DNA of 64,000 bases, taken from positions 1,850,698 to 1,914,697 of the forward strand of contig JAAVVV010000001.1 in the NCBI GenBank assembly GCA_023910605.1. Reading direction: 5' to 3'. The DNA is from Bosea sp. (in: a-proteobacteria). GTDB lineage: Bacteria; Pseudomonadota; Alphaproteobacteria; Rhizobiales; Beijerinckiaceae. Positions 36,298-38,597 of the stretch are shown here, piece by piece; position 1 is the stretch's first letter, and every line of letters starts with the position of its first letter. A program made the position numbers and the translations under genes. The notes under the pieces are model-generated. The model made no database searches, was not told where the DNA came from, and saw nothing but the letters and a program-made list of their open reading frames with translations.

Positions 36298-36508
36298 CGT
36301 TCTGGACGATGGGGAGCCATCCCGGCCTTTGAGACTACGTATTCATACCACCCGGAGTGCTCCGGATTTCGCATCATGCGCTTTTGGGGCTTGCTATCCT
36401 CCTGATCGTTCGGGGGAGCGATCAGTATGCGTGACCTTGGCCGGTATACGGCCTGGACATGAAGCGTCTGGCGGCGTGATCGCCGCCGGCGCACCCCCCC
36501 TTCGGCCT

Positions 36509-36583
36509 GCGACCTGCGACCCCGCGACCCCGCGACCTGCGACCCCGCGACCTGCGACCCCGCGACCTGCGACCTGCGACCCT
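36509..36583. repeat. Short tandem repeat of GCGACCT / GCGACCCC units
   Basis: About ten head-to-tail units, mixing 7-bp GCGACCT and 8-bp GCGACCCC (plus one GCGACCCT), fill 75 bp of the 437-bp gap 36238-36674. On the other strand the units read AGGTCGC and GGGGTCGC. Apart from the rpsI terminator the gap shows no gene I can support. Confidence 0.8.
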
Positions 36584-36674
36584 GCGGCGCGCCGCTCTTT
36601 GCCTTCCCAGTCACGCTGGTTCAGATAGTCTTGCAGGCGGGACGATGGGTTCCGTTTCGGCTCGGGAGCCTTTG

Positions 36675-37088: not shown

Positions 37089-37118
37089 TTGACAAGGCCG
37101 CCGATCCGGTCCCATAAC
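37089..37118 (+). promoter_or_regulatory. Promoter of the argC leader transcript
   Basis: TTGACA (37089-37094) and CATAAC (37113-37118) with 18 bp between. The expected start of transcription, 6-8 bp past the -10, falls at 37124-37126, on the start codon of the leader peptide at 37125. There is no ribosome site before that ATG, so the leader peptide is probably translated from a leaderless RNA, as known for trpL of Sinorhizobium meliloti. Confidence 0.6.
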
Positions 37119-37124
37119 CGCCGC

Positions 37125-37181
37125 ATGATCCTGAGCCTCGCCCGTCGCCGACGCAGCTGCCGCCTTTCGCTGGCGCGCTGA
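37125..37181 (+). CDS. Arginine-rich leader peptide of argC
   Basis: An 18-codon open frame, [18 protein letters not shown], ending in TGA. Six of 18 codons are Arg and four are consecutive (37143-37154). It is followed by overlapping stems and a terminator, then by argC, an arginine biosynthesis gene. This is the design of a ribosome-mediated attenuator: when charged tRNA-Arg is short, the ribosome stalls on the Arg run and lets the antiterminator form. It is too short for ordinary gene finding. The biological reading is inference, but the codon bias, position and RNA layout agree. Confidence 0.75.
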
Positions 37182-37216
37182 CGCTCGTTCCCGGGCCGAA
37201 CGCACCCAGCCGCGCC
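37154..37216 (+). promoter_or_regulatory. Attenuator stems 1:2 and 2:3 of the argC leader
   Basis: Segment 1 (37154-37164, CAGCTGCCGCC, just after the Arg codons) can pair with segment 2 (37172-37180, GGCGCGCTG) through nine pairs with two bulges. Segment 2 can alternatively pair with segment 3 (37207-37216, CAGCCGCGCC) through GGCGCG/CGCGCC and CTG/CAG with one bulged C. Segment 3 is the 5' arm of the terminator, so 2:3 pairing prevents termination. Pairings were found by eye; energies were not computed. Confidence 0.65.
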
Positions 37217-37231
37217 TCTGCGCGGCTTTTT
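37208..37231 (+). terminator. Intrinsic terminator in the argC leader (attenuator)
   Basis: AGCCGCGC-CTCT-GCGCGGCT followed by TTTT, located between the leader peptide and argC, 38 bp before the argC start. It lies ahead of a gene rather than after one, which supports an attenuation role. Confidence 0.85.
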
Positions 37232-37269
37232 CATGTCCTGAACGCAGCCATCGGGCAAAGAGGACCATC

Positions 37270-38202
37270 ATGACCACCAGGGCGACCATCTTCATAGACG
37301 GGGAAAGCGGCACCACCGGCCTCGGCATCCGCGAGCGTCTGGCAGCCATGCCGGAGATCGCCATCGCCAGCATCGATCCCGCCCTGCGCAAGGACCCGGC
37401 GGCCAAGCGCGATCTTTTCGGCCGCGTCGATCTCGTCGTGCTCTGCCTGCCTGACGATGCCGCCAAGGACGCCGCCGCGATGGCGGACGGCCTGCCGGGC
37501 GGCGGGCCCCGCATTGTCGACGCCTCCACCGCGCATCGCATCGCGCCTGGCTGGACCTATGGCTTCCCCGAATTATCCGCCGAGCAGGGCAGGGCGGTCG
37601 CTGCATCGCGCCGGGTCGCAAATCCGGGCTGCTATCCCACTGGCGGCATCGCGTTGATCCGCCCTCTGGTCGAGGCAGGGCTGATGGATGCCGACCATCC
37701 GGTGACGGTCAATGCGGTGTCCGGTTACTCGGGCGGCGGCAAGGCCATGATCGAGGCCTACACGGCCGGCGCCGCGCCCTCCTTCGAGCTTTATGGCCTT
37801 GGCCTTGAGCACAAGCATGTGCCGGAGTTGCAGCTTTATTCCGGCCTCAGCCGCCGGCCTCTCTTCGTGCCATCGGTCGGCAACTTCCGGCAGGGGATGC
37901 TGGTCTGCGTGCCGCTGCATCTTGACCTCATGAAGGGCAAGCCCACGCCCGCCGACCTGCAGGCCGCGCTGGCAAAGGCCTATGCCGGGTCCGAATGGGT
38001 GTCGGTCGCATCCGCCGAGGCGGTGGCCTCGCTGGGCGGCAAGATCGAGGCTGAGGCGCTCAATGACACCAACAAGCTCGAACTGCGCGTCTTCGGCAAC
38101 GCCGCGCGCGGGCAGGCCGTGCTGGTGGCCCGGCTCGACAATCTCGGCAAGGGCGCGTCGGGCGCGGCCGTGCAGAACATCAGGCTGATGCTGGGCCTTT
38201 GA
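37270..38202 (+). CDS. argC: N-acetyl-gamma-glutamyl-phosphate reductase
   Basis: A 310-residue NADPH-dependent reductase of the short alphaproteobacterial ArgC class, third step of arginine synthesis. The dinucleotide-binding motif is [14 protein letters not shown] (7-20) and the catalytic Cys is C121 in [11 protein letters not shown]. The family blocks [16 protein letters not shown] and [11 protein letters not shown] follow. The ATG at 37270 has GAGGA 5 nt upstream. Expression is probably controlled by the leader peptide and terminator immediately upstream. Confidence 0.96.
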
Positions 38203-38213
38203 GGGAGGGATCG

Positions 38214-38597
38214 ATGAGCCAGATCGACGAGGACATCGCCGCGATCGCGGCGGCGACGCAGGTCTATTTCGACGCGCTGCATGATGGCGATGCGGACGGC
38301 TTGGCCAGGGTCTTCCTGCCCAGTTCCTCCCTGACCCAGAGCGTGGACGGCGAGATCGTCATCACGCCGCGCGACGCCTGGCTTGATGCGGTGCGCAAAC
38401 GGCCCTCGCCGCGTGCGAGCGGGCTGGCGCGCCATGACCGCATCCTTGCCATCGACCGCATCAGCGGCACGCTGGCGCATGTGAAGGTGGCCTGCGCGAT
38501 GCCGCCCCGGCACTTCATCGACATCCTGTCCTTCCTGAAGTCCAGGGATGGCTGGAAGATCGCCCAGAAGGTGTTCACCACGGAGACCCGGGCCTGA
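38214..38597 (+). CDS. Nuclear transport factor 2-like (lumazine-binding-type) protein
   Basis: A 127-residue cone-shaped NTF2-like fold: an N-terminal helix (DIAAIAAATQVYFDALHDGDADGLARVF), then strands including LTQSVDGEIVIT, HVKVACAMPPRHFIDILSFLKSRDGWKIAQKVFT. This matches the putative lumazine-binding NTF2 subfamily, mostly of unknown function. The ATG at 38214 has GAGGGAGG upstream and follows argC by 11 bp, so it probably shares the argC transcript. A hairpin spans its stop codon. Confidence 0.8.
   Translation: MSQIDEDIAAIAAATQVYFDALHDGDADGLARVFLPSSSLTQSVDGEIVITPRDAWLDAVRKRPSPRASGLARHDRILAIDRISGTLAHVKVACAMPPRHFIDILSFLKSRDGWKIAQKVFTTETRA

Follow-up and report, generated by a model that had tools for sequence, protein, structure and literature searches.

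Ribosome-mediated transcription attenuators are classically known from the his, thr, leu, ilv, phe and trp genes of proteobacteria. They combine a leader rich in cognate codons, alternative stems and an intrinsic terminator, all of which recur in the argC leader of Bosea sp. described here. A close likeness is offered by the trpLE(G) attenuator (rnTrpL) of the alphaproteobacterium Sinorhizobium meliloti, in which a short ORF with consecutive cognate codons begins at the first transcribed base and is followed by a terminator/antiterminator switch (PMC7298713). That system carries Trp codons before trpE(G) and its start has been mapped, whereas the present leader carries Arg codons, precedes argC or argD, and has a start predicted from its promoter. 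A second alphaproteobacterial leader, uORFC-8-2 ahead of cysS in Rhodobacterales, also has tandem cognate codons and predicted attenuation, but its codons are for cysteine and its gene encodes an aminoacyl-tRNA synthetase (PMC8632094). Consecutive Arg codons that respond to arginine are found in the leader ORF orf34 of Salmonella speF; however, this gammaproteobacterial leader controls ornithine decarboxylase, not arginine biosynthesis, and does so via Rho, sequestration of the ribosome-binding site and RNase G (PMC6386406). In Staphylococcus aureus, the leader peptide rbfL likewise senses arginine limitation, but through rare AGA/AGG codons and for translational control of a biofilm regulator (PMC13009471). 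The leader peptide before carA of Pseudomonas precedes a gene that serves both arginine and pyrimidine synthesis, but there attenuation is possibly by pyrimidines and arginine control is transcriptional (PMC4997734). A paper of 2005 described histidine, threonine and phenylalanine genes of other species as attenuator-controlled, and tyrosine and arginine genes as T-box-controlled (PMC1262725).

No leader attenuator of argC or of arginine biosynthesis was found in the open full-text literature, in keeping with the first-pass annotation, which knew of no established arginine example for argC; subscription papers lie largely outside this scope and an earlier report is possible. The word argC is absent from the main text of Naville and Gautheret 2010 (PMC2965389) and of Corbino et al. 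2005 on alphaproteobacterial RNA motifs (PMC1273637), and nothing was found in the open literature on arg gene regulation in the family to which this Bosea strain belongs. The mechanism is best read as a known one, with the amino acid class (Arg) and the controlled genes being new, and the element would add an amino acid to the classical attenuators.

The window analysed here is the whole stretch of 64,000 nucleotides from Bosea sp., and all features described below lie on its forward strand. A -35 element, TTGACA, is located at 37089-37094, and a -10-like element, CATAAC, was assigned by spacing to 37113-37118, six bases ahead of the leader ATG. Because these two elements sit so close to the ATG, at the usual promoter spacing, transcription is predicted to start at about 37125, on the A of the ATG or directly beside it, and the transcript is probably leaderless. 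The leader ORF itself (37125-37181) comprises 18 codons from ATG to a TGA stop and is conserved in relatives. Its Arg run, CGT CGC CGA CGC at codons 7-10 (37143-37154), also found in relatives, is the proposed stall site, and further Arg codons at positions 13 and 18 bring the total to six, exactly the frame that had been read from the sequence at first pass. Three alternative stems had also been claimed, and all three fold in silico. Stem 1:2 (37149-37187) pairs 37149-37163 with 37169-37187 in the leader transcript. Folding predicts it for the window and for the Bosea consensus alike, but it was not found as a generally conserved part among relatives. The antiterminator 2:3 (37172-37216), which shows compensatory changes in relatives, pairs GGCGCGCTG (37172-37180) with 37207-37209 and with CGCGCC at 37211-37216, with an inner stem between 37186-37190 and 37198-37202. 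The intrinsic terminator 3:4 (37208-37231) is a GC-rich hairpin, AGCCGCGC-CTCT-GCGCGGCT at 37208-37227, with five T at 37227-37231 rather than the TTTT first recorded, and its stem is conserved across 41 aligned leaders. A gap of 38 nt separates the T-run from argC (37270-38202), whose product, N-acetyl-gamma-glutamyl-phosphate reductase, matches TIGR01851 (argC_other) at 388.6 bits against a cut-off of 229.85; the earlier assignment to arginine biosynthesis is thereby upheld.

Two minor features flank this locus. Upstream, at 36506-36586, a tandem array of a 7/15-bp unit (CCTGCGACCCCGCGA), with about five copies of 15 bp, sits between a frame that by eye is rpsI-like and the small ORF preceding the argC promoter. 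Downstream, a small ORF (38199-38597, TTG start, with an ATG at 38214) overlaps the 3' end of argC and may share its transcript; judged by eye alone, it is NTF2/SnoaL-like.

We interpret the element as a ribosome-mediated transcription attenuator that senses charged Arg-tRNA and controls argC, a reading to which we assign a probability of about 0.88 on the basis of sequence comparison and folding models. RNA polymerase would start at or beside the leader ATG, and a ribosome would translate the 18-codon leader. With ample charged Arg-tRNA, this ribosome would reach the stop codon and cover GGCGCG in the last codons, the terminator would form and transcription would end before argC. With charged Arg-tRNA scarce, it would stall on the Arg run and leave GGCGCG free; this segment would then pair with the terminator's 5' arm, and transcription would continue into argC. 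A leader ORF with cognate codons, a terminator before the gene and an antiterminator exclusive of it are all present, the latter two as judged from sequence and folding. The attenuator proposed at first pass gains support, as the Arg run, the terminator, the antiterminator and the distance from stall site to stop all appear constrained. Conservation of the Arg-rich frame and stems, which had been named beforehand as what would decide against the idea if missing, was found in relatives.

Occurrence was examined in 110 argC loci and 120 further regions from genomes of the same family and order; 227 of these 230 regions had 400 bases upstream, and 216 non-identical windows were scored. To be counted, a window needed TTGAC, a start codon (ATG, GTG or TTG) 28-45 nt further on, an open frame 9-30 residues long in which some stretch of four codons included two or more Arg, and, 5-75 nt past the stop, a GC hairpin followed by a T-run. 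This whole architecture was present in 68 of the 216 argC upstream windows, compared with 1 of 4320 dinucleotide shuffles, none of 216 reverse complements and none of 1890 flanking windows, and is far beyond chance. When windows sharing a 120-mer were merged (mostly one locus fetched twice), the count was 63 of 202 loci, and this set tells the same story. All 68 detected starts are ATG, though GTG and TTG were permitted, and the TTGAC-to-ATG distance is 35-38 nt in every case, though 28-45 nt was permitted; the hairpin follows the leader stop by 21-44 nt. Every one of the 30 loci sampled from the genus, itself represented by 37 genomes with that of the window among them, carries the element. 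So does at least one member of 12 of the 37 other genera sampled in the family, while the same detector did not find it in the remaining 25; in other families of the order it was detected in 2 of 40 regions (L224 and L230). Six further argC loci (L163, L167, L175, L143, L083 and L115) have a TTGAC-spaced, Arg-rich leader in which no intrinsic terminator was detected. Such leaders in other genera perhaps represent another mode of control or decaying copies.

The Arg run belongs specifically to the frame of the leader and appears to be selected as codons. Runs of at least three Arg occur in frame 0 of 55 of the 68 leaders, whereas such runs are seen in only 1 and 2 leaders in frames +1 and +2 and in 2 on the reverse strand. 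The mean Arg fraction (0.272 in frame 0, 0.219 in frame +1, 0.096 in frame +2 and 0.205 on the reverse strand) differs far less between frames than the runs do, a consequence of the GC-rich sequence. In 62 of the 68 leaders the run opens 11-13 codons ahead of the stop, and in the window 12 codons ahead. The opening codon is CGA in 59 of the 68 leaders (54 of 63 merged loci), CGC in 6, CGG in 2 and CGT in 1; later codons of the run are CGC (63), CGT (53) and CGA (17), and never CGG, AGA or AGG. CGA is absent from the 114 Arg codons of five long ORFs in the window, of which only argC was searched against families, and the contrast with the CGA-first run amounts to a prediction at codon level. 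If CGA, CGC and CGU are read by one tRNA with an inosine-modified ACG anticodon, the leader would watch that isoacceptor. A particular choice among synonymous control codons is expected from theory (PMC1183508). The codon bias may also have an RNA-level cause, for example if the run itself takes part in pairing. Apart from its Arg residues, the peptide shows little conservation from genus to genus; its C-terminal ARxR, which is conserved, can be explained at least partly by antiterminator pairing of the codons concerned.

The switch was modelled with a ribosome on the first Arg of the run, RNA assumed free from 15 nt after it, and a transcript extending up to the terminator loop. So stalled, 67 of 68 leaders sequester half or more of the terminator's 5' arm. 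The predicted terminator probability falls below 0.5 in 48 of 68 stalled leaders (median 0.05). A ribosome at the stop brings none of the 68 below this value (median 0.95), and folding with no ribosome does so for 34. Among 45 leaders (Bosea-like and one Microvirga), the stalled terminator probability has a median of 0.01, compared with a mean of 0.75 for shuffled spacers; the corresponding values for the 23 leaders of other genera are 0.57 and 0.84. The energy of the antiterminator is hardly better than that of shuffled spacers (median z -0.62 and -1.29 for the same two sets), and in the model the difference from shuffles lies in competition with the terminator, not in energy. The window's own copy is weak, with a predicted equilibrium terminator probability of 0.72 when stalled against 0.97 at the stop; 12% of its shuffled spacers do as well or better, so that it is not significant alone, and it is thermodynamically weaker than most of its relatives. 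Stalls at later Arg codons free nothing in this copy, the terminator standing at 0.94 and more from codon 9 on. In the same folding test, the predicted switch is absent from the relatives L116, L117 and L179.

In 64 of 68 leaders, the helix that best reaches the terminator arm begins within the last leader codons, 8-26 nt short of where the stop codon ends. Its strand is often GCGCG or GGCGCG, with other solutions in L178 (GCGGCTG with CAGCCGC) and L154 (GCCTCGC with GCGAGGC). RNAalifold applied over all genera recovered almost no antiterminator and was replaced for this helix by folding each sequence separately and by a swap test. In the latter, leader ends and arms of 26 representatives averaged -24.7 kcal/mol as own pairs and -22.5 kcal/mol when swapped; none of 20000 permutations was as low as the own pairs, although the own arm was worse than the mean foreign arm in 6 of the 26. 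In an alignment of 41 sequences, 99.4% of terminator stem cells are paired, with 14 double-change cells, a number reached in none of 500 shuffles. For the antiterminator, 82.0% of cells are paired, compared with 27.8-46.1% when the strands are slid, and there are 29 double-change cells against 11.2 in shuffles (none of 500 as many). The antiterminator does not exceed shuffles in the number of its covarying pairs or of its pair types, which were equalled or surpassed in 123 and 136 of 500 shuffles. Since some of these sequences had also served to define the antiterminator structure, its covariation is support and not proof.

Several other explanations must be weighed against attenuation. The hairpin could be a mere terminator at the 3' end of an upstream transcript, with the Arg frame a by-product of GC-rich sequence. 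The locus is indeed GC-rich, Arg codons are frequent in frame +1 too, and a plain fold of the whole 211-nt stretch is no better than shuffles (z -0.28), so that fold energy alone would have dismissed the element. This reading is nonetheless the least probable of those considered, as the Arg runs are confined to one frame, the architecture arises in a single one of the 4320 shuffles, a promoter-like TTGAC stands 35-38 nt ahead of the ATG in every detected leader, and the element precedes arginine genes of different families; both the chance-ORF and the upstream-terminator versions were rejected on the frame-specific runs, the shuffles and the TTGAC spacing. Control that is mainly Rho-dependent or translational, with the intrinsic terminator secondary, is improbable as well. 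It would suit the six Arg leaders mentioned above in which no intrinsic terminator was detected, but the window has a terminator stem followed by a T-run, and the compensatory changes in that stem among the 41 aligned leaders exceed all shuffles. The 68 scored leaders carry a terminator by the definition of the detector and provide no independent evidence on this point.

The remaining alternatives concern the peptide. An Arg-rich nascent chain might arrest the ribosome together with a small molecule, for example ornithine or a polyamine, and so sense another signal, as suggested by the more complex control exerted through the Arg-containing leader orf34 of speF (PMC6386406). The poor conservation of the peptide outside its Arg residues, and the share of antiterminator pairing in the C-terminal ARxR, speak against such an arrest, for which we see very little likelihood. 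The same lack of conservation weakens the idea that the terminated leader RNA or the Arg-rich peptide also acts in trans, attenuation being one of two functions; with the precedent of the leaderless trpL of S. meliloti, which yields both a trans-acting sRNA and a peptide (rnTrpL and peTrpL, PMC7298713), this second function is unlikely but deserves more credit than the other alternatives. Attenuation in response to charged Arg-tRNA remains the preferred reading.

The regulator ArgR (PF01316) was matched in none of 119 genomes of the family, compared with 9 of 14 control genomes (8 above the cut-off), and control of argC by ArgR in this family was rejected on this ground. The element provides a concrete and testable answer to the regulation of arg genes in a family where ArgR was not detected. 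In the window's genome, no hairpin with a T-run was found in the 450 nt upstream of argD, argG and argJ, and a covariance model built from the leaders finds a single place (E up to 0.01). Given these two results, argC seems to be the only one of the four genes covered (argC, argD, argG and argJ) on which the element acts in this genome. Rfam release 15 gives no match at gathering level at the element, the window matches being two tRNAs elsewhere, and a permissive search of six loci returned six matches, all below gathering, the best at 30.7 of 75 bits.

The covariance model comprised 41 leaders from ATG to T-run, with TTGAC left out, and was run on 397 genomes of the order, 119 of the family and 367 of the class, these samples overlapping. 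At 40 bits or more, 44 distinct places were found, of which 17 (by hand count) belong to the model's own alignment. At 43 of them a TTGAC is followed, 35-39 nt later, by the ATG of a leader in which four codons include two or more Arg; the 44th, a second match in G459, is a chance match. Forty of the 43 precede argC, by position or downstream ORF, and copies extend to further families and orders. In family f20 and genus g159, this argC is of the other subfamily, TIGR01850 (type-1), as tested for L253, L265 and L241 and assigned to the others by sequence likeness. In G310 (L276) the element precedes argD (TIGR00707, 452.9 bits against a cut-off of 410.05), as it does in G543 (L282), a genome outside the order. 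That a single module stands ahead of both argC subfamilies and of argD is more readily explained by an arginine signal than by any feature of one gene, and it offers a natural comparison. It is reasonably likely, if well short of certain, that the element founds an arginine class of leader attenuators: leaderless, tuned to the tRNA for CGA/CGC/CGU, and controlling argC of two subfamilies as well as argD in several alphaproteobacterial families and orders, in the place of ArgR.

Model matches below about 36 bits are mostly false. Of 30 matched loci that were read, 11 (L249-L252 and L254-L260) lack an ATG frame that is correctly spaced from a TTGAC, contains an Arg cluster and ends ahead of the hairpin, though several are Arg-rich in some frame. 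Among 20 further regions, 16 are second-tier or lower matches, and of these only L270-L272 contain a leader.

Some copies show peculiarities of their own. One strong match, in G260 (L238, G260:C2:1444-1562), stands before a Rid-like ORF and no arg gene; it has a full Arg leader (MSPYAINRRRQFENPARARGR), and the downstream ORF is enamine/imine deaminase-like, below the cut-off. At L294 (G459:C1:1195880-1196200), one of the 43 places, an argC leader has lost its stop and its frame enters the terminator hairpin, perhaps as a decaying copy. The argD of L282 (210-1391), from an incomplete genome, is interrupted by an in-frame stop and read as two pieces. Finally, G310 possesses a second Arg leader before argC (L272, 32.1 bits), so that two different Arg-leader attenuators, the one before argD (L276) and the one before argC, are encountered in one genome.
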